Shown one piece after another: positions 31,159 through 63,836 of a DNA stretch of 64,000 nt (positions within the stretch are counted from its first letter, which is position 1; each line of letters opens with the position of its first letter). Made by a program: the position numbers and the translations under genes. Below the pieces are notes generated by a model that searched no databases, was not told the DNA's origin, and saw only the letters and a list, made by a program, of their open reading frames with translations. Source of the stretch: a virus; the IMG/VR virus record IMGVR_UViG_3300025012_000029, positions 124,001 through 188,000 of that record. One strand, 5' to 3'.

Positions 31159-32823
31159 TTATTCAACACTGTCAAAGTATTCTTTAAAGGTATTATAATT
31201 TGACTCTCCTATAACATCTTTAAATTCATGGAAAACATCACGTTCTTCGCGCCTTCGACGAAGCATTTTGTCTGGATCGGAACTTGTGCTTAATCCGTCT
31301 GGATTATAATAATAAAGTCCCAATATTTTATTAACCTTCTTAAAAAGAGAACCAGCTCTAACAGCTCGCAACCATAACTCCCAATCTCCAGCGTGTTTGA
31401 GTTTTTCATCCCATAGTCCCGCTTTATCGTGAATAGATTTACGATATAGAGGTAGGGGTCCGGGAAGACATTTGATCATATTTTCTCTGGAAAAATCCAT
31501 TCGAGAGTGTTCATACAATCTTCCTTTTGAAGAATTTTGTTCAACTGTTTCATTAGGTTTTGTCGTTTGAAGACAATCCCCATATACCAAATCGATTTCT
31601 GGATTCAACATTAAGTGTTTTGCTAGTGTTTCTAAATGATCGTTCGCCATCCTATCATCAGCCAACACACATGCTATAAATTCCCCGGACGCAAGTTTCG
31701 TTGCTTCATTAAATGCTTCCATTGGAGTTATTTGGGTGTTTTTTCTAATATATTTAATATTGTCTGTATGCACTTGTATATATTTCGAAATTATTGAGAC
31801 TTCATCATCTGGAGAATTGGCATCGATAATGATTAATTCAGAATCGTCTGATATTGTTTGTGCTACAAACGAATCCATAAAACCTTTAATATGTTCCTTT
31901 GCTTTATAGATTGTCGTAATAACTGAAACTTTGGGAAGTTTTACTGAATTAAATTTTTCCACTTCTTTATCTTTGATTACTTTCTCAAACAAATCAATTG
32001 TTTTTTCTTTTCTTCCGGCAATATATTCTAATAACTCTTCGCCCTTTAATTTGAAAAAATCTTCTGATGCGCATCCTAAAGCTTTGTTTGTTATTAATTT
32101 ACAACCTAGAATTCTAGCTTCAATCGCGACCCTACAAAATGTTTCAATCCATGTAGGAAAAAACACCAACGTTTCTGTTTTGGCAAGTTCATCAAAAAAT
32201 CTATCTTGATCACAAAATGGAATTAATTCATAATTTATTTTATTCTTTTTACAATATTGTATTGCTTCGGGCATGCCTTTATTTTTATTATTGGATTGGA
32301 TAATACCAACTTTTCTATTCTTCTTTTTTCCAATATTGTTGCGAAGGACTTCAACTGCTTCATCAGACCATATATTACATCCAATATTGACAATATTTTT
32401 GAGAAGAAGATTTTTCTCCATTATTTCAGCATGCATCTTGCTTTGACAAAAAACTGCTTTCGCTGATTTAAAAAATTGTTTATTCTGTATTTGATCTTCA
32501 GGAACAACAAGATTTGGAAATAATGCTGGGTTATTTGATTTGAATGCCTTCCAATCATTTTCAACTATCAAATAATTTATTTTTTCATTAATCAGTGTTT
32601 GTTTACTATCTTCTGGTAATAGCATAAAATTTGATATTATCCAAAAACAATCTTTATTGTCTTTTAGCAAGTTAGAAGTACATTCAACACTTTTAAGTTT
32701 TTCTAATTCGAATCCACGTTTCTGCAGAGACTTTATTTGTTCTTCTGCGCACAACTCGGCACCGCCACAGATTTCATTAGCAAAATAGTCAGCAACATAA
32801 ACAACTTTTTTAGTATTAATCAT
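31159..32823 (-). CDS. Two-domain glycosyltransferase (GT-B-like plus GT2)
   Basis: The start is ATG 32823 (the TTG six bases earlier is unlikely). Residues 1-280 resemble a GT-B domain with FPTWIETFCRVAIEARILGCKLITN near its end. Residues about 290-550 form a GT2 domain: VSVITTIYKAKEHIKGFMDSF, IIIDANSPDD, then ADDRMANDHLETLAKHL with the metal-binding acidic pair, and HAGDWELWLRAVRAG. Two active sites could add two sugars in sequence. It overlaps the intein-bearing glycosyltransferase by 8 nt. Confidence 0.83.
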   Translation of the reverse strand: MINTKKVVYVADYFANEICGGAELCAEEQIKSLQKRGFELEKLKSVECTSNLLKDNKDCFWIISNFMLLPEDSKQTLINEKINYLIVENDWKAFKSNNPALFPNLVVPEDQIQNKQFFKSAKAVFCQSKMHAEIMEKNLLLKNIVNIGCNIWSDEAVEVLRNNIGKKKNRKVGIIQSNNKNKGMPEAIQYCKKNKINYELIPFCDQDRFFDELAKTETLVFFPTWIETFCRVAIEARILGCKLITNKALGCASEDFFKLKGEELLEYIAGRKEKTIDLFEKVIKDKEVEKFNSVKLPKVSVITTIYKAKEHIKGFMDSFVAQTISDDSELIIIDANSPDDEVSIISKYIQVHTDNIKYIRKNTQITPMEAFNEATKLASGEFIACVLADDRMANDHLETLAKHLMLNPEIDLVYGDCLQTTKPNETVEQNSSKGRLYEHSRMDFSRENMIKCLPGPLPLYRKSIHDKAGLWDEKLKHAGDWELWLRAVRAGSLFKKVNKILGLYYYNPDGLSTSSDPDKMLRRRREERDVFHEFKDVIGESNYNTFKEYFDSVE

Positions 32824-35326
32824 ACGCAATAACTTCTTTCAATAAGGGATTAACTTCTTTTTCTTCTTTCAGAAAATCCGCAATATCTACAATTGGATAA
32901 TATTCATCTACACAATCGGCGAAATGTGTCAACATCTTATCGGAATCAAATTTGTCTAACACATATTCTTGAAGTTTGTTTGCTCGCGATTTACAAGAAC
33001 CATAATTTTTGTAAACTTCCCTCATTTGTTGTTTAGCATCAATTTCTCTAGGAAAGCACCATTGTGCATCAGGAATAATTATTCCATCCCAAACTGCTTC
33101 TGGTTGAACATTTTTAATATCGTACGCTACGTTAGAAATCATACATGTATTTTTGATTTTATTCTTTTTCTTATCTTTTATTGGCATATAAATAAAATCA
33201 TTTTGTCCACTCCATGCGGGGGCAACTATCGGCAATCCATTATATGCTGATTCAAACATTGGAAGACAGTTGTGCACCATAAAATTTTCAGTACAATAAG
33301 TTTCGTCTTCTTCAACAGAAAGGTTGAATACTTTACCAGCGTGCTGAAATTTAGTAATATTTTTTATTCTCAGCAAAAAACAATCTTCTTTTTCTTTAGT
33401 TCTTCCAGATTGTTTTTCATTAAACGAATCTGCCAACTGCAGTGTGTCGTATATTACAGTATTAGAAGTATGTTTATTTAACATGGTTACAAATTTATTA
33501 ATACTTTCTTTTTTTCCAATAACTAACGAATGAATTTCACTCTTGTAATTCCATTTTTCTTTAATAATTCCTTCTCGGGTGCACATTTTATAGGAACATA
33601 ATATTCCTTGTTCTAATAATAATATTCTAATTTGTCTCAATAATGTTTTATTGACAAGTTGTACCTCTATAGATGGATTCTTGTAATTTTTAGTATTAAT
33701 ATATCCATCTCCTTCAAATAAAGCAGTAATCATTCCCTCTTTAAATTCATTAGGAAACGAGAAAACGCAATCACTAATAACTTTATTTTTTGATTTATTT
33801 CCCAATAAAGATTTGAAAAATAAAGCCACAATTTTATTGTGAAATACAATAACAGAACATTTTTTATTTTTTCTTTTTTCTATCCTAAAATGTTCTATCC
33901 CGAATATATCTTTCATGCAATTGATAATTTCTTTTCCAAAAGAATCAATTTCTTTATCATGAAGAGAAAAAGCAATAATTCTATCATCAGATACACATCC
34001 TTCGGCTAAAAACCATCCACACAATCTACCAAATTTTTTATCAATATTGATATTATTTTTTATTTTTAGGCCAAGTTTATTTGAATGCATATAAAAAATA
34101 TCTTCATCGTTTAGTACTAAATTTTTTTCATTTTTTACGTGTTCAAATATATCAATATTGTTAATGATATTTTCTTTTTTTGACATTTTTGGCAAAACCA
34201 AATAGTCATTTTGTTTTAATTCATCGCTTCTTTTCCACAAGAATTCTTTATTTTTATTATCATAAATGTAAACATTGTGATTCGGCGTTAAAACAATTGG
34301 TTCCATAGGTACTGCACAATATGGAACAATTTTAATCATCTCGCCAGAATATTCACGAGACATAGGAGTTATAACTTTTCGATATCGATTTCTATGAGTC
34401 AATACTAAATCTCCAGATTTAATATCGATCAATTTCTTAAGTCCTTTGTCTGTAATAATTGGAGTATAGTCCAATCCGCAGAAACCTTCTCCGTGCGTTA
34501 AACTAATGAAAGCTTTAATTTTTGGATGTCTATAAAGAAAAGTCATTTCTTCCTCTCTTAAATCTCCATGTAAAAGATGTATAGCACATTTTCGTTCTTT
34601 TCCATTAAATTGAGATAAAACATCATTAACTCTATTTTGAGTCATTTCTCTATCCATTAATGATTGATTAACGGAATTGACTTTCAATATTAATCCAACT
34701 TCTTTATTCATAAACTCTTCAACGAACCATTTAATTGTATTTTCAACATTCTTTCGTGGTCCCCATTGAGCTACAGTTAGAAAATTAAAATCATACTTAA
34801 AATCAACATTAATTGGTTTTGGTTCTACAATTCTAACCGGATAAGGAACAACTTCCATTGGCATCTCAAGTTTGGCAACAAATTGTCTTCCTGTAACATT
34901 ATCTGTCGCTGGAAACTGCGCATTGGTAAAACCAAATTTAGAATGATTAGATGTTAATAGAATTTTGTTTACATTGAAACATCCCTGAAACCATTGAGGT
35001 GAAATTTTAGTTGTTTCAATTCCAGCAGTATATCCAATATTAATTGGAGCCATTTTTTTCCACTCATTTGGGATACAAACTTGTAATGATATATCAAACT
35101 GTCCACCTTGTTGTTGATAAACAAGAGTTTTTTGAAGAATTTGATCAATCCAGCGGCGCTCTTCTGTATCTTCCCATGTCCAACTTGTTCTACCCCAAGG
35201 GGTATTAATGAGATATATGTCAAATCGTTCTGGAAACTTTCGAAGAGCGGAAAGAGCAAAACGACTCTGAACACCATAACCGCTTTGGCTCAAAAAAGGT
35301 CCCCTCATTATGATTTTTTTAGTCAT
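32816..35326 (-). CDS. GT-B glycosyltransferase interrupted by an intein, 836 aa precursor
   Basis: Extein residues 1-282 and 687-836 join to a 432-aa GT4/GT-B enzyme. The first part starts IIMRGPFLSQSGYGVQSRFAL and contains NFLTVAQWGPRKNVENTIKWF; the second has LPMFESAYNGLPIVAPAW and ends in DCVDEYYPIVDI. The splice site lies in the conserved THGEGF-GLPxFE motif that binds the nucleotide sugar. The first residue after the intein is Cys rather than the usual Gly, giving the +1 nucleophile. Without splicing the enzyme should be inactive. Confidence 0.87.
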   Translation of the reverse strand: MTKKIIMRGPFLSQSGYGVQSRFALSALRKFPERFDIYLINTPWGRTSWTWEDTEERRWIDQILQKTLVYQQQGGQFDISLQVCIPNEWKKMAPINIGYTAGIETTKISPQWFQGCFNVNKILLTSNHSKFGFTNAQFPATDNVTGRQFVAKLEMPMEVVPYPVRIVEPKPINVDFKYDFNFLTVAQWGPRKNVENTIKWFVEEFMNKEVGLILKVNSVNQSLMDREMTQNRVNDVLSQFNGKERKCAIHLLHGDLREEEMTFLYRHPKIKAFISLTHGEGFCGLDYTPIITDKGLKKLIDIKSGDLVLTHRNRYRKVITPMSREYSGEMIKIVPYCAVPMEPIVLTPNHNVYIYDNKNKEFLWKRSDELKQNDYLVLPKMSKKENIINNIDIFEHVKNEKNLVLNDEDIFYMHSNKLGLKIKNNINIDKKFGRLCGWFLAEGCVSDDRIIAFSLHDKEIDSFGKEIINCMKDIFGIEHFRIEKRKNKKCSVIVFHNKIVALFFKSLLGNKSKNKVISDCVFSFPNEFKEGMITALFEGDGYINTKNYKNPSIEVQLVNKTLLRQIRILLLEQGILCSYKMCTREGIIKEKWNYKSEIHSLVIGKKESINKFVTMLNKHTSNTVIYDTLQLADSFNEKQSGRTKEKEDCFLLRIKNITKFQHAGKVFNLSVEEDETYCTENFMVHNCLPMFESAYNGLPIVAPAWSGQNDFIYMPIKDKKKNKIKNTCMISNVAYDIKNVQPEAVWDGIIIPDAQWCFPREIDAKQQMREVYKNYGSCKSRANKLQEYVLDKFDSDKMLTHFADCVDEYYPIVDIADFLKEEKEVNPLLKEVIAYD
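33269..34480 (-). mobile_element. Intein with LAGLIDADG endonuclease in the glycosyltransferase
   Basis: In-frame insertion of 404 residues (283-686 of the precursor). It starts at Cys1 (CGLDYTPIIT) and ends VHN before the +1 Cys, as in class-1 inteins; LTPNHNVYIYD is block B. The middle has two LAGLIDADG-type helices, LCGWFLAEGC and MITALFEGDGYI, so the homing endonuclease is probably intact. The intein DNA is more AT-rich than the flanking extein. Confidence 0.88.
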
Positions 35327-40147: not shown

Positions 40148-42742
40148 TTACAATACCTGCGATGCTATGGTAGCTACGCGACTACGCTCGCCTTTTGTTA
40201 ACGTTACATGTCCAGCAAAATCAAATTCTTTGAATTTTTCTACTACATGAGTTAGTCCATTAGAAGTATCATCGACATGTACGTTATCGATCTGTTCTAC
40301 ATCTCCAGTCAAAACTATTTTACTGTCATTTCCAACTCTTGTTAGGATGGTTTTCATTTCATGCTTAGTCAATGACTGGCATTCGTCAATTATTATATAA
40401 GCATTTTGAATAGATCTACCTCTAATGTATGTTAGAGCTTCAATTTCAATTATTCCCTTCTCCATATATTGAGATAACATTAAATGATCATTGGAAAACA
40501 AAAACCTTAGATTGTCTTGAATTGGAGAAAGCCATGGTAACATCTTTTCAGCTACAGTATTATGTGTAACAATATAATCATCAGTTATATATAAATGCTC
40601 AGGATCATCAATTAGAATGCATTTAACTTCTTTTTCTCCAATATAATTAATTTCTTTTATTTTACTAAAATGTAAATATTTTGCTTTATGTCTATTTGAT
40701 TTTCTAGAAATAAAAAATGGATTAATTGTTTCTGGAAGACTTATTGTAAATTCATATGTACAAAAATTAGATTTAACAATTCTATTATTTATTTTTGTAT
40801 TGTCATTTTCTTTACGAATTTCTCTTTTTCTTAAAATTGATTTACCTCCTAATGAATAAACTAATTCAATAACATCTAATGCCAATTGTTTGCTAGTTGT
40901 TATAAAACCGGCTTCTCCTTTTTCTTTTATTGTGCCATCTGTGTCCATTAATCCTTGCAGTATTGCAATTCTATCTTCTATAGAAGAAAATTTATAAATA
41001 TTAGGAATAAATTTATCATTACATTTTCTGCCTTCTAAACCTAATTTAAATAATTCTTCTTTTATTGGATTGCTCCATTTGTTTTCACAATCTAGAAATT
41101 CATATTTAAAATTATCAATAATAAGTTTTTTATCACATCTACTTTGCAAAGTAGAACGATTAATATCTAATTTTTCTAATGCTTTTCCTATTGAAGAAAA
41201 TTCTATTTCTTCTTTTGTTATAGAATTAGTTATTTTTATTTTTCTAGATGGTTTATTATTTGTTTGATATTTTCTTTTTATATTATAAAAAATTGATTTG
41301 CCAGGATCACCTAAAATACAATCCATCATTTCCAATTCTTTTCTTACTCTATCAATAAGTTCGTTATCTATATTAGATATACCAATACTATTTGATATTG
41401 ATCCATCACCCAATATTGCGCCTAATACATAAGGAGGAATTGGTAATAATTGTTTATTAAATTGTATAGGTTCGTTTCTTGGTATTGAATGATTAATTTT
41501 GTCTCCTATTTTTAATGTTGTTCTAATTTCATTAGTACTGCGTATTTTTCCTTTTTTATTTCTTTTTCTTTCCTCGGATGTCTGGGTATACCACAAATGA
41601 TCATCACAACATTCTGTTTTTCTATTATCAGTAGTTATAATTTCAAAAACTGATTTTTTTCCTTTTGGAAACGTACCAATAACTTTCGAAGGTTTTCCAT
41701 TTTTAGCAATAATATAATTTCCAATTTCAATATCACCCATGGTAGTCCATCCATTGGGAGTTAATATCTTAGCATCTAAAGGTTGTGGGCCAGGCAAAAA
41801 CCCTATATCTCGACCCATCGGCTGTACAGGCCTTGATATAATCAATCTACTATATTTGTGTTCTTTTTCTTTATCTCCGTTTTTTCCATTTCCATTTTTT
41901 AGTGGTGATGACATTAATTGTTGTAAACCAGCAGCTACAGCCAATAAACTCTTTCCACTTCCTGCTTTTCCAATTAAACTTACAACTGGAATGTTAGGAT
42001 CCAATAAAATATCTATGGCAAAACTTTGTTCTTTGTTTTTTGGAGAAATGCCCCAAAGATTTTCACTCTCTTTTACTTTACGAAGAGGAGTATTTTCATC
42101 CATATAGCGCGCAATTGCTGTTTTCTTCTCATTTGCGCTTGACACTAACATTATAAATTGATTACAGTGAAATCGATTTTTTTGTTTAATAGCATCTTGT
42201 TTAGAAATATAAATGTTTTCACCAGAATAAAATCTGTCAATCAATTGATCATCAACTAAAAAAGTTGAGAAGCCAGTGTAGATTTGTGATTTTTCTTTTA
42301 TTGCGCGATTTGGAGTATAGTCTTCTGCTTTTATACCTATAGAGTCGCATTTAACTCTCATATTTATGTCGCATGAGACAACGACAACTTTAGTATTTGG
42401 ATTATTTTTTTGTTCTGTTATGGCAGTAGCAATAATTTGGTGGTCCGGAATAGATGAATCAAAACCAATTGGTAAAACACCAAAATCAAAATTTTTTGCT
42501 AATACAAAGCCACTATTCTTTTTTACTCTAACACCAGTTTGCAGAGATCCTTTCTCCCTTAATGAATCTAATATCCTAATGATTCCACGTGCATTTGTGC
42601 CGACGCTATCCACGCGCTTTTTATGATTATCAATTTCTTCTAAAACTATTAAAGGAATGACAATGTTGTTTGAGCCATATGAAAATATTGAACGAAAATC
42701 AGAAAGATATACGGATGTGTCTAAAATGTATGTTTTTTTCAT
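40148..42742 (-). CDS. phoH: PhoH2-type PIN-PhoH ATPase interrupted by an intein, 864 aa precursor
   Basis: The N-terminal PIN domain starts KKTYILDTSVYLSDF and holds acidic nuclease residues; the PhoH ATPase contains the Walker A LIGKAGSGKSLLA and Walker B AYIIIDECQSLT. Extein residues 1-318 and 729-864 join to 454 aa at QPMGRDIGFLPG-TVAEKMLPW, a conserved PhoH segment. PIN-PhoH proteins are ATP-driven RNA helicase/nucleases, and PhoH is common in marine-type T4-like phages. The intein interrupts the ATPase. Confidence 0.88.
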   Translation of the reverse strand: MKKTYILDTSVYLSDFRSIFSYGSNNIVIPLIVLEEIDNHKKRVDSVGTNARGIIRILDSLREKGSLQTGVRVKKNSGFVLAKNFDFGVLPIGFDSSIPDHQIIATAITEQKNNPNTKVVVVSCDINMRVKCDSIGIKAEDYTPNRAIKEKSQIYTGFSTFLVDDQLIDRFYSGENIYISKQDAIKQKNRFHCNQFIMLVSSANEKKTAIARYMDENTPLRKVKESENLWGISPKNKEQSFAIDILLDPNIPVVSLIGKAGSGKSLLAVAAGLQQLMSSPLKNGNGKNGDKEKEHKYSRLIISRPVQPMGRDIGFLPGPQPLDAKILTPNGWTTMGDIEIGNYIIAKNGKPSKVIGTFPKGKKSVFEIITTDNRKTECCDDHLWYTQTSEERKRNKKGKIRSTNEIRTTLKIGDKINHSIPRNEPIQFNKQLLPIPPYVLGAILGDGSISNSIGISNIDNELIDRVRKELEMMDCILGDPGKSIFYNIKRKYQTNNKPSRKIKITNSITKEEIEFSSIGKALEKLDINRSTLQSRCDKKLIIDNFKYEFLDCENKWSNPIKEELFKLGLEGRKCNDKFIPNIYKFSSIEDRIAILQGLMDTDGTIKEKGEAGFITTSKQLALDVIELVYSLGGKSILRKREIRKENDNTKINNRIVKSNFCTYEFTISLPETINPFFISRKSNRHKAKYLHFSKIKEINYIGEKEVKCILIDDPEHLYITDDYIVTHNTVAEKMLPWLSPIQDNLRFLFSNDHLMLSQYMEKGIIEIEALTYIRGRSIQNAYIIIDECQSLTKHEMKTILTRVGNDSKIVLTGDVEQIDNVHVDDTSNGLTHVVEKFKEFDFAGHVTLTKGERSRVATIASQVL
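40559..41788 (-). mobile_element. Class-3-like intein with LAGLIDADG endonuclease in phoH
   Basis: In-frame insertion of 410 residues (319-728). It starts with Pro (PQPLDAKILTPNGWTTMGDI) instead of Cys or Ser and ends IVTHN before a +1 Thr. Trp in DDHLWYT, Cys in EVKCILIDD and Thr in VTHN form the WCT set of class-3 inteins, where an internal Cys replaces the N-terminal nucleophile. VLGAILGDGSI and LMDTDGTI are LAGLIDADG motifs, and a NUMOD1-like DNA-binding segment lies between them (SIGKALEKLDINRSTL). Confidence 0.87.
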
Positions 42743-53491: not shown

Positions 53492-53700
53492 GTGAACTAC
53501 CCACACACGCCAACGGCAATGGGATGGGCTTCGGGTTTCACAGAGTGTGCTTTGTTGCCAAAGTCTGATTTCCTCTCCACCCTTGTAATGGGCAGTCCAT
53601 GCCCATATATTTTCAATCCTTCTTTAAGTATGTTCCTTGCAGCATTTAAATCACGGTCTAATACGTGTCCATTCTTGCAAGTCCATTTTCTTATAGAAAG
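53492..53700 (-). ncRNA. Probable omega RNA of the TnpB element (3' end of tnpB into the element end)
   Basis: TnpB guide RNAs are made from the 3' end of tnpB and the adjacent element end; the guide is the flanking DNA. The element end contains a hairpin-forming segment (CCCATCCCATTGCC with GGCGTGTGTGGG). The guide would begin next to the GTTCAC edge and match the leader and start of the 52105-53481 gene. The 5' boundary is uncertain. Confidence 0.42.
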
Positions 53701-54693
53701 ATTTAAGTCTTGATTTATATAGCCACACTCACAGCAGGTTTTTGACGATGGATACCAGCGATTGATTTTAACGATTTGTTTATCATTCCAATCTGCTTTG
53801 TATTCAAGCAATCTTACAAACGTTCCCCAACTGGCATCTGATATGTGTTTTGCAAGTTTGTGGTTTTTAACCATTCCCTTTACATTCAAATCTTCTAATG
53901 CAATTATATCATAATCTGATACTAATTGACGGGATACTTTGTGTAAATTATCCATTCGTGAGTTGGTTATCTTCTCGTGGATTAAGGCTGTTTTTCGTCT
54001 TTGTTTTTCAAACGAAAAGCTTCCTTTTGTTTTACGAGAAAGATGTTTTTGAGCTTCCGCTAACTTTCTTTCATATTGTTTTGTGTATTTGTTATTCTTA
54101 AATTTAATTCCATCAGAAGTAATAGCAAAGTCTTTTAATCCCAAGTCTATTCCACAAACCGCACCTGTCTTTTCTTTTGGCTGATATTGTTCTTCTGATA
54201 GAATTGATACAAAGTATTTTCCTGTTGGCGTTTTGCTTAAAGTACATTTCCCAATTTCACCTTTTACTTCTCGGTGAACATTAACCTTAATTCCTTCTTT
54301 AAACTTCGGGGCATAAAACCTATCTGCTTCAAGTTTTGCGAATTGAGGAACAGTAAATGTATTTTTCTTTTTCCTTGACTTAAATCGTGGAAACTTAGCA
54401 TTACCACGAAAGAAGTTTACATAGGCAGTATCCAAACATCTTAAAGCAAATTGTAATGATTGGCTGTTAACTTCTTTAAGCCAAACAGTTTCCTCTTTTT
54501 TCTTTAATTCAGTTAGTGTTGCTGCCTGTGCATAGTAATTATCTGATTTTTTGTCTGCTTGATACTGCTCTTTTCGCTCATTTAGAAAATGATTATACAC
54601 AAATCGGGTACACCCAAAGTGCTTTTCCAACAACATCTTTTGCTCTTGTGTTGGTTGTAATTCGAATTTATATGTCCGAAATATTGTTTTCAT
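53497..54693 (-). CDS. tnpB: TnpB RNA-guided nuclease, 398 aa
   Basis: RuvC motifs are complete: VCGIDLGLKDFAI (Asp), IIALEDLNVKGM (Glu), and the final HVLDRDLNAARNIL (Asp). A zinc ribbon SSKTCCECGYINQDLNL and WTCKNGH separates RuvC II and III. The N-terminal wedge starts MKTIFRTYKFELQPTQEQ. TnpB cuts the donor joint next to a short TAM and thereby retains the element. It ends AVGVCG inside the element end. Confidence 0.9.
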   Translation of the reverse strand: MKTIFRTYKFELQPTQEQKMLLEKHFGCTRFVYNHFLNERKEQYQADKKSDNYYAQAATLTELKKKEETVWLKEVNSQSLQFALRCLDTAYVNFFRGNAKFPRFKSRKKKNTFTVPQFAKLEADRFYAPKFKEGIKVNVHREVKGEIGKCTLSKTPTGKYFVSILSEEQYQPKEKTGAVCGIDLGLKDFAITSDGIKFKNNKYTKQYERKLAEAQKHLSRKTKGSFSFEKQRRKTALIHEKITNSRMDNLHKVSRQLVSDYDIIALEDLNVKGMVKNHKLAKHISDASWGTFVRLLEYKADWNDKQIVKINRWYPSSKTCCECGYINQDLNLSIRKWTCKNGHVLDRDLNAARNILKEGLKIYGHGLPITRVERKSDFGNKAHSVKPEAHPIAVGVCG

Positions 54694-62392: not shown

Positions 62393-62935
62393 TTAATCGG
62401 ATAATTCTCCATGCCAATATAAGCATGTTGCCATATAGTCTCTCCATGAATCTGGAGCACCTTTATTCCAAAATATAGTTTGGAAGATGTTCTTTGGTTT
62501 ACTTGGAATAGATAACAAAGTCATTCCAGATTTATGAAGAGGTTTATCTTGTTTTCGTCTATTACAATCTACACAACAAACGACAACATTTTTCCATTCC
62601 GTTATCCCACCTAATGCCCTTGGAACAATGTGATCTAGTGTAAACTCTTCTGTCGTACAATGAGTTCCACAATATTGGCATTTTCCTTTATCTCTTGCAT
62701 AAACATTATCTCTTGAGAATTTTACTCTTCTCACTTTTTTGAAAACGTTTTTGACAAATCTGATAATGGAAGGAACTTTGAATGCTTGATGAGCTGAGCG
62801 AACCCATAAGTCAGCATATTCTTCTACAATTTCAACCTTATCCATCATATAAAGACAAAAAGCACGTTGCCAGCTAATAATTCCTAGTGGTTGATATGAA
62901 GTATCGAGCACTAGCGTTTTTGCGTTCACATCCAT
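62393..62935 (-). CDS. HNH endonuclease, 180 aa
   Basis: ATG 62935 has AAGGAAAAG upstream. NAKTLVLDTSYQPLGIISWQRAFCLYM at the start and CQYCG, FTLDHIVPRALGG and NVVVCCVDCNRRKQDK form a zinc-stabilised HNH domain. This arrangement is frequent in bacteria and large phages; it may be a housekeeping nuclease rather than a homing enzyme. It lies directly after the tmRNA-like RNA. Confidence 0.85.
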   Translation of the reverse strand: MDVNAKTLVLDTSYQPLGIISWQRAFCLYMMDKVEIVEEYADLWVRSAHQAFKVPSIIRFVKNVFKKVRRVKFSRDNVYARDKGKCQYCGTHCTTEEFTLDHIVPRALGGITEWKNVVVCCVDCNRRKQDKPLHKSGMTLLSIPSKPKNIFQTIFWNKGAPDSWRDYMATCLYWHGELSD

Positions 62936-62954: not shown

Positions 62955-63032
62955 TGGAGCGCAGGGGAGTCGAACCCCTTTCCGAAAAACTCCATTTGTT
63001 GGATTATCTTTCGTCGAAACCATTAGCGCCCC
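62955..63032 (-). ncRNA. 78-nt tmRNA-like RNA (tRNA-like domain without message domain)
   Basis: The 5' end GGGGCGC, followed by TAATGGTTTCGACG, matches the conserved tmRNA start (GGGG...GGxTTCGACG). The 3' end has TTTCGG, then a T-arm AGGGG/CCCCT with TTCGACT and GCGCTCC closing the acceptor with a G3.U pair. Between them CGAAAGAT/GTTTTTCG and TCCA/TGGA form one hairpin in the position of P2. The tag-reading region and pseudoknots are absent; no CCA is encoded. A sigma70-type promoter lies 8 nt upstream. Confidence 0.65.
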
Positions 63033-63040
63033 ATATTTTT

Positions 63041-63069
63041 ACTATAAATAACTATTCATCATTTGTCAA
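63041..63069 (-). promoter_or_regulatory. Sigma70-type promoter for the tmRNA-like RNA
   Basis: TTGACA (63064-63069), 17-bp spacer, TATAGT (63041-63046); the predicted start falls on the GGGG of the tmRNA-like RNA. The -35 overlaps a 7-bp inverted repeat (GTCAAAT/ATTTGAC, 63065-63080), which might act as an operator. Confidence 0.65.
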
Positions 63070-63422: not shown

Positions 63423-63440
63423 ATTTATTCACACATTAAG

Positions 63441-63514
63441 AGGATAGGGAGGGACTTGCGCCCACTAAAATTCGTTTTGCAGACGAATGCCTCGACTACT
63501 TCAGCTTCCTATCC
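63441..63514 (-). tRNA. tRNA-Cys(GCA)
   Basis: Acceptor GGATAGG/CCTATCC, anticodon TTCGT/ACGAA with loop CTGCAAA (GCA), T-arm GTGGG/CCCTC with one mismatch. Discriminator T (U73) fits bacterial tRNA-Cys. Confidence 0.88.
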
Positions 63515-63729: not shown

Positions 63730-63731
63730 AA

Positions 63732-63810
63732 CATTGTGGTGACGAGTCGAACGCCTTGAAATAACTTTTGGAGGGTTACCCGAATCCGATTCGGTTTAAT
63801 CTACCACAAT
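63732..63810 (-). tRNA. tRNA, probably Trp(CCA)
   Basis: Acceptor ATTGTGG/CCACAAT pairs; the anticodon loop CTCCAAA gives CCA, but the stem has a mismatch. The D-region is enlarged (about 24 nt) with a strong hairpin CCGAAT/ATTCGG. Discriminator G fits tryptophan. Confidence 0.58.
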
Positions 63811-63836
63811 ATAATTTAGATGAATTCATCTAAAAG

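Follow-up and report, generated by a model that had tools for sequence, protein, structure and literature searches.

A phage genome that we analysed as a window of 64,000 nucleotides, taken from a virus record of 201,144 bases, encodes a miniature tmRNA that belongs to a widespread family, and we have hardly any doubt that this is a real, conserved RNA family. The gene lies on the minus strand, with its 5' G at 63032 and the discriminator A at 62955. An initial annotation had placed a 78-nt tmRNA-like RNA with a G3.U pair here; both are present, and the RNA scores over the cut-off of the Rfam tmRNA model RF00023. Its parts and its immediate neighbors are as follows.

62955..63032, minus strand: miniature tmRNA, 77 nt plus discriminator A; Rfam RF00023 54.5 bits
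63026..63032, minus strand: acceptor stem, 5' strand GGGGCGC, containing G3 of G3.U70
63014..63025, minus strand: D-loop region TAATGGTTTCGA, the tmRNA signature, without a D-stem in the fold
62983..63013, minus strand: P2 stem, internal loop and inner hairpin TCCA-ACAAA-TGGA, from the fold; homologous helices covary
62963..62982, minus strand: GAA linker and T-arm AGGGG-TTCGACT-CCCCT
62956..62962, minus strand: acceptor stem, 3' strand GCGCTCC, containing U70
63041..63069, minus strand: putative sigma-70 promoter TTGACA-17-TATAGT, 11/12 consensus matches, best of the scan
62393..62935, minus strand: HNH endonuclease gene, Pfam HNH_5 and HNH over cut-off, directly downstream of the RNA

RF00023 aligns with the window RNA over model positions 1-374 (E 1.2e-18, gathering cut-off 47), and this is its sole match over cut-off in the 64 kb. 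Thirteen nucleotides stand in for 306 positions of the model, which bears out the earlier description of a stand-alone tRNA-like domain without a message. By this alignment the mRNA-like domain, with its resume codon and tag reading frame, is absent, and the pseudoknot region is missing. What the RNA has is a tRNA-like domain with G3.U70 and the D-loop and T-arm of tmRNA, carried by a phage without a canonical coding sequence, as in the message-less tmRNA of the DS6A type. The gene lacks CCA; ACTT comes next. RNAfold, which draws nested stems only, accounts for the entire insert: the core consists of an 8-bp stem, a 2-nt bulge, an inner hairpin of 4 bp closing a 5-nt loop, and a 5-bp T-stem. 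The minimum free energy (MFE) is -31.2 kcal/mol (z -3.2; 1 of 200 shuffles equally good), and in that structure the acceptor stem has 8 pairs, the outermost joining the base before G1 to A73. A segment of 31 nt, comprising P2 and the inner hairpin, replaces message and pseudoknots. Thus the two conserved ends of tmRNA are joined, as had been claimed, but not by one short hairpin; a covarying P2 stem, an internal loop and a second conserved hairpin lie between them. A covariance model, R1, was built from 18 relatives with the window sequence left out; run over the 201-kb genome with a threshold of E 0.001, it gave a single match, the window RNA (52.7 bits, E 6e-11).

Several other identities were considered for this RNA and rejected. 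An ordinary tRNA with an anticodon arm, which the initial annotation had named as the outcome that would count against it, does not fit: in an Rfam scan with tmRNA and tRNA models the tRNA models, RF00005 included, stayed below their cut-offs, ARAGORN made 11 tRNA calls in the window and none at this site, and the loop of 5 nt folds into no anticodon arm. A permuted tmRNA was rejected for the window RNA because the 5' and 3' pieces stand in standard order, and an attP fragment of a tmRNA because the 5' half is complete and the downstream neighbor is the HNH gene rather than an integrase.

Eight nucleotides separate the TTGACA-17-TATAGT sequence from the first G of the RNA. This had been read as a dedicated promoter starting transcription at that G. 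The match is there; its use and the start site are only plausible because the region is rich in such matches to the sigma-70 consensus (17 found, 8.6 +/- 3.4 expected). The mechanical ORF of the HNH gene begins at 62995, within the miniature tmRNA; we chose instead the start codon at 62935, which leaves 19 nt between the discriminator A and the gene. Neither SmpB nor a second tmRNA over the RF00023 cut-off was found in the 201,144-base record. Four tRNA genes lie in the 3-kb locus around the RNA. By eye, two further tRNA-like sequences appear on the minus strand at 63437-63513 and 63731-63811, with weak folding support (z -1.3 and -1.5) and no call from ARAGORN or Rfam; they are possibly degenerate or unusual tRNAs.

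Relatives were collected by pattern scans of IMG/VR and GTDB genomes, to which later scans and phage matches were added. The patterns gave at least 160 sites, at least 148 of which passed filters on the acceptor (6 of 7 standard pairs demanded) and T-stem; several of the 12/160 failures look like full tmRNAs at their 3' ends, and tRNA-like false matches accounted for another 2/104 unique sequences, which were dropped. The resulting set holds at least 138 unique sequences. Besides the window they come from at least 182 IMG/VR contigs, 8 named cultured phages and 10 bacterial genomes, the last with 11 loci because one site was entered twice. One site with 4/7 acceptor pairs, L256, was left out of it. 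The copy in contig L018 comes from the same virus as the window (100% over 3,930 bp) and so gives no independent evidence. Clustering the flanks of 150 loci by nucleotide sequence gave 61 groups, and 50 once shared proteins were added; short flanks may have split them too finely.

Size sets the family apart. Among the matches listed, 126/138 measure 76-81 nt, 10 measure 59-67 nt and the other two 83 and 88 nt. The gap between two tmRNA landmarks is 8-38 in 62 + 71 contigs and 39-69 in 4. At 70-100 there are 9 contigs, 8 of them known loci in which the match ends where the miniature copy ends but takes in a second landmark 51 nt upstream; in L042, L091, L141 and five relatives, this is a second TTCGACG 51 nt upstream of the RNA's own. 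Longer forms are rare (L233, L234 and L235, 105-137 nt, 46-56 bits). R1 separates the same class by score: over 96 loci, 96 miniature forms reach at least 47.1 bits and three other matches at most 29.8, and in a further run miniature forms reach at least 46 bits and other matches, ordinary tmRNA 3' ends included, at most 35.7. Pseudomonas phage SM1, Xanthomonas phage Rb1, Gordonia phage GMA2 and Stenotrophomonas phage QDWS359 were rejected as members with this lower class. Two matches were assigned to neither class: L185 592-668, at 35.7 bits, and L277 3164-3234, a 71-nt tmRNA-like match of 38.1 bits that has G-C at 3-70 and lies on a contig that also has a proper miniature copy.

The family may have gone unseen because ARAGORN misses nearly all copies tested, 193/201 (144/150 + 49/51), identical copies in different contigs being counted. 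When the window copy or single relatives served as BLAST queries against phages, most alignments were confined to the 3' part of the query, and one search returned nothing; a search of plasmids with one query gave no match.

The initial annotation had pointed to conservation in related phages as a test, and here the RNA fares well: the family extends across many phages and its stems covary. On 98 distinct rows the covariation score is 0.658, for an alignment fitted to the structure, which favours the score; shuffles give 0.141 +/- 0.009, with 0/500 as high, and slid alignments at most 0.113. Double changes occur at 6/7 pairs of the P2 stem and at 3/3 pairs of the inner hairpin (3 of the 99 alignment rows are low-scoring extras, kept in the pair counts). 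MFE folding is weak for some members, including phiPsal1 (z -0.7, a different fold), BRock (-0.6) and Riptide (-1.7); it is covariation that carries the case. A rough count of inner hairpin loops in 93 unique sequences of 75-82 nt, which picked a different hairpin in some, window copy included, gave GNRA in 29, CNNG in 26 and no hairpin in 10. The central hairpin may resemble a portion of pseudoknot 1 in E. coli tmRNA. A stop triplet stands first in the internal loop in 38/95 unique aligned rows, whereas the other 57 do not have one there; the triplet may mean nothing, and a message of one or two codons is conceivable.

The G3.U70 pair is the alanine identity pair. It is present in 138/138 unique members among the matches listed, U70 being imposed by some of the patterns, and in 65/65 kept unique sequences (again among the matches listed) whose patterns put no constraint on position 70. 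Since the acceptor filter demanded 6 of 7 standard pairs, it cannot alone generate G.U at 3-70. Acceptor pairs 4-69 to 7-66 vary, and the neighbors of 3-70 take four to six pair types. With one pair constant among variable ones, charging appears to be selected, which points to a charged RNA and not to a mere SmpB sponge.

A search that demanded the central hairpin (AAGCCGCAYGCGGA), a T-arm and TCCA, imposing U70 but leaving the D-loop free, brought out a branch in which the D-loop has diverged. It returned 55 contigs and, across all loci, 41 unique sequences, of which 8 have TTCGACG, 12 differ in its last base alone and 21 are altered elsewhere (TTTAGCC and TTAGATA, for example; the poor-acceptor site L256 is among them). 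That last base, the sole change in 12/33 variants, is paired. Position 3 is G in 41/41 and the acceptor is complete in 40/41. The stems of this branch covary as well (0.645, shuffled 0.139, in an alignment that is likewise fitted to the structure; 1 of 51 rows is a low-scoring extra kept in the pair counts). At its cut-off RF00023 found the miniature copy in 6 of 12 hairpin-branch loci and missed 6, among them Riptide and Alone3. As judged from these sequences, the central hairpin is retained even where the D-loop signature of tmRNA drifts, and the 21 sequences altered elsewhere in the D-loop suggest that not every member preserves the presumed SmpB/D-loop site.

The cultured carriers are Streptomyces phages LuckySocke, GiJojo, pSt2308, BRock, Alone3 and Riptide, Pontimonas phage phiPsal1 and Stenotrophomonas virus Jojan60. 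The miniature copy is annotated as an RNA in 0/8 of them; those of GiJojo and Jojan60 lie partly under a hypothetical protein. We looked in phage records with a miniature copy, many of them fragments, for other parts of a ribosome-rescue system. SmpB was found in 0/50, an RF-1/ArfB domain in 0/51 and a full-length tmRNA at E 1e-10 in 0/50, a threshold that a permuted form could escape (the apparent permuted tmRNA of phage S-CAM3 reaches only 7e-9 with RF00023). At E 1e-10, RF00023 matched in 45/50 records, and over cut-off in 38/50; the matches listed are all of 92 nt or less. Lacking SmpB, an RF-1 domain and a full tmRNA in these records, the miniature RNA would have to use host factors. Riptide (PV654398.1), tested later than the 50-record set, carries a full tmRNA at 94862-95130 with an annotated tag peptide and a divergent miniature copy at 83298-83374.

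A separate full tmRNA is present in 8/10 bacterial genomes carrying a miniature copy. Terminase, integrase and head-protease genes occur in some of the 7 bacterial neighborhoods covered (63/70 ORFs scanned, from 7/8 loci), so that at least some of these loci are prophages or phage contigs. One rumen Bacillota genome (MAG G001) has two miniature-size RF00023 matches over cut-off, on contigs C57 and C59. A tRNA gene lies within 2 kb of 26/105 unique copies. A portal gene is downstream in 17/100 genes scanned and a capsid gene in 8/100; of the upstream genes, scanned for 71/95, terL accounts for 17/71 and a head protease for 4/71. The RNA stands between terL and portal in some related phages and between head protease and capsid in others. 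In L021, L049, L068 and their relatives, it sits between the genes for the terminase large subunit and the portal, where small RNA genes are not usual.

The reading that we place first, at about an even chance, is that the miniature tmRNA, charged with alanine but carrying no tag, competes with the trans-translation system of the host. If the RNA is expressed during infection, the host would mature it and add CCA, host AlaRS would recognize G3.U70 and A73 and charge it, and EF-Tu together with SmpB, both from the host, would bring it to ribosomes stalled without a codon. There it would accept the nascent chain while holding no tag message, and so would vie with the host's own tmRNA both for SmpB and for stalled ribosomes; trans-translation would be blocked or rerouted, presumably to the benefit of the phage. 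The tRNA-like domain is that of tmRNA, G3.U70 is kept while nearby pairs vary, the tested records (many of them fragments) hold no SmpB, RF-1 domain or full tmRNA of their own, and most of the bacterial genomes concerned have a full tmRNA with which to compete. That the alanine pair is constant suggests that charging matters, and hence a competitor entering ribosomes rather than a passive sponge. Against this, the inhibition described in PMC4131195 needed no charging, and inhibition alone leaves the kept G3.U70 unexplained. Moreover, 33/41 unique hairpin-found sequences lack an exact TTCGACG, and the scheme does not explain the G-C at 3-70 of the L277 match. A plain decoy needs no conserved central hairpin. 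The decoy idea fails to predict that this hairpin persists where the D-loop has diverged, nor does it predict, as simple inhibition, Riptide's miniature copy beside a full tmRNA.

The same evidence bears on the alternatives. A pure sponge that titrates SmpB, with charging irrelevant, accords with earlier inhibition seen whether or not the RNA was chargeable (PMC4131195), and is improbable in view of G3.U70 at 65/65 with position 70 free and of the D-loop signature that has diverged in part of the family. Nor do we think it likely that the RNA helps the phage by tag-less rescue, in which the charged RNA with host SmpB would free ribosomes, adding alanine and no proteolysis mark, and the host would finish release and recycling. 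The kept alanine identity, the head-gene operons in which some phages hold the RNA and the mitochondrial message-less tmRNAs that persist with SmpB (PMC11915505) speak for it; against it, the RNA has no release function, an RF-1 domain protein occurs in 0/51 records, and a similar RNA inhibited tmRNA (PMC4131195). Equally unlikely, to our minds, is an alanine-charged tRNA mimic acting outside trans-translation, its central hairpin binding some partner, for instance as a lure for RNA-cutting defence nucleases. The hairpin and alanine acceptor do persist where the D-loop diverges, and Riptide has its own full tmRNA. The partner is hypothetical, however, and the window copy and all TTCGACG-pattern sequences keep TTCGACG, which says little on proportions because the patterns demanded it.

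Two further readings are less likely still. As tRNA-like punctuation the RNA would be a place for RNase P and RNase Z to cut polycistronic phage mRNAs; its position between terL and portal or protease and capsid genes in some phages would suit this, but cutting alone predicts neither a fixed G3.U70 nor a conserved central hairpin, and gene contexts vary between phages, so we hold it very unlikely. A decayed tmRNA, also raised initially, or a prophage attachment-site remnant is scarcely credible. Phage tmRNA 3' pieces do adjoin integrases, as in Niklas and BENtherdunthat, and a few longer forms exist. Decay is rejected because of the sharp size, the covariation (0.658 against 0.141 shuffled), the constant G3.U70 and the spread among many phages; the 5' half is complete, and the gene next to the window RNA encodes an HNH protein, not an integrase. 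More tentatively, as a possibility well short of an even chance, we may be looking at a large family of phage RNAs, overlooked so far, that arose when tmRNA's tRNA-like domain was rebuilt round a new conserved hairpin. Hairpin and alanine charge, not the SmpB site, would then be the functional core of a new effector acting on stalled ribosomes or on a translation-directed defence, not just a shortened tmRNA.

Should the competitor reading hold, the miniature tmRNA may let phages interfere with the bacterial freeing of stalled ribosomes. That many different phages retain so compact an RNA suggests selection for tampering with host ribosome rescue, and with eight cultured carriers the functional question is testable now.

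The closest precedent is the tmRNA of mycobacteriophage DS6A, described in PMC4131195, which cites Mao et al. 2009, as "TLD only" (the tRNA-like domain). There, a molecule similar to the DS6A form strongly inhibits tmRNA, chargeable or not, perhaps by titrating SmpB; PMC11915505, citing the same work, places the inhibition of endogenous tmRNA in E. coli. The likeness, drawn from description only, is of a phage-borne tRNA-like domain of tmRNA without a tag message. DS6A is the one phage named in the available parts of the two papers, compared with at least 182 viral contigs here. The second of these sources also counts 9 tmRNA sequences as "Standard, no CDS" and 79 from phages, and describes message-less tmRNAs of about 65 bp in plastids of Mallomonadaceae and others that persist with SmpB in some mitochondria, where help with incomplete mRNAs is suggested. 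By description these are likewise message-less, but organellar. A survey of 18,146 phage genomes with ARAGORN reported tmRNA genes in 402 and includes a permuted two-piece tmRNA in phage Melnitz (PMC9004378). Thus a phage TLD-only tmRNA and its inhibitory decoy idea are already in print, and the wide family and its conserved central hairpin are unreported in the titles and abstract openings found, in a search whose scope left out most subscription journals and preprints.

With canonical tmRNA the miniature RNA shares the acceptor with G3.U70, the D-loop without a D-stem, the T-arm and the start of P2; it differs in having no canonical tag frame or pseudoknots, in its length (about 78 against about 360 nt) and in the extra conserved hairpin. 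The apparent permuted tmRNA of Synechococcus phage S-CAM3 is also a phage tmRNA beside tRNA genes, but there the 3' piece comes first, whereas the miniature RNA has the standard order. In S-CAM3 the 3' piece, a short spacer and the 5' piece can be recognized by eye at 1480-1600 of locus L236, where they are unannotated and overlapped by a hypothetical protein.

Elsewhere in the window, three other minus-strand genes were noted. An 836-aa ORF at 32816-35326 combines an intein splicing domain with a LAGLIDADG domain, and Pfam gave no match on its outer part. A PIN-PhoH protein at 40148-42742 is broken by a LAGLIDADG-bearing insert, probably an intein. Finally, 53497-54693 encodes a TnpB-like protein, OrfB_IS605 with a Cas12f1-like domain.
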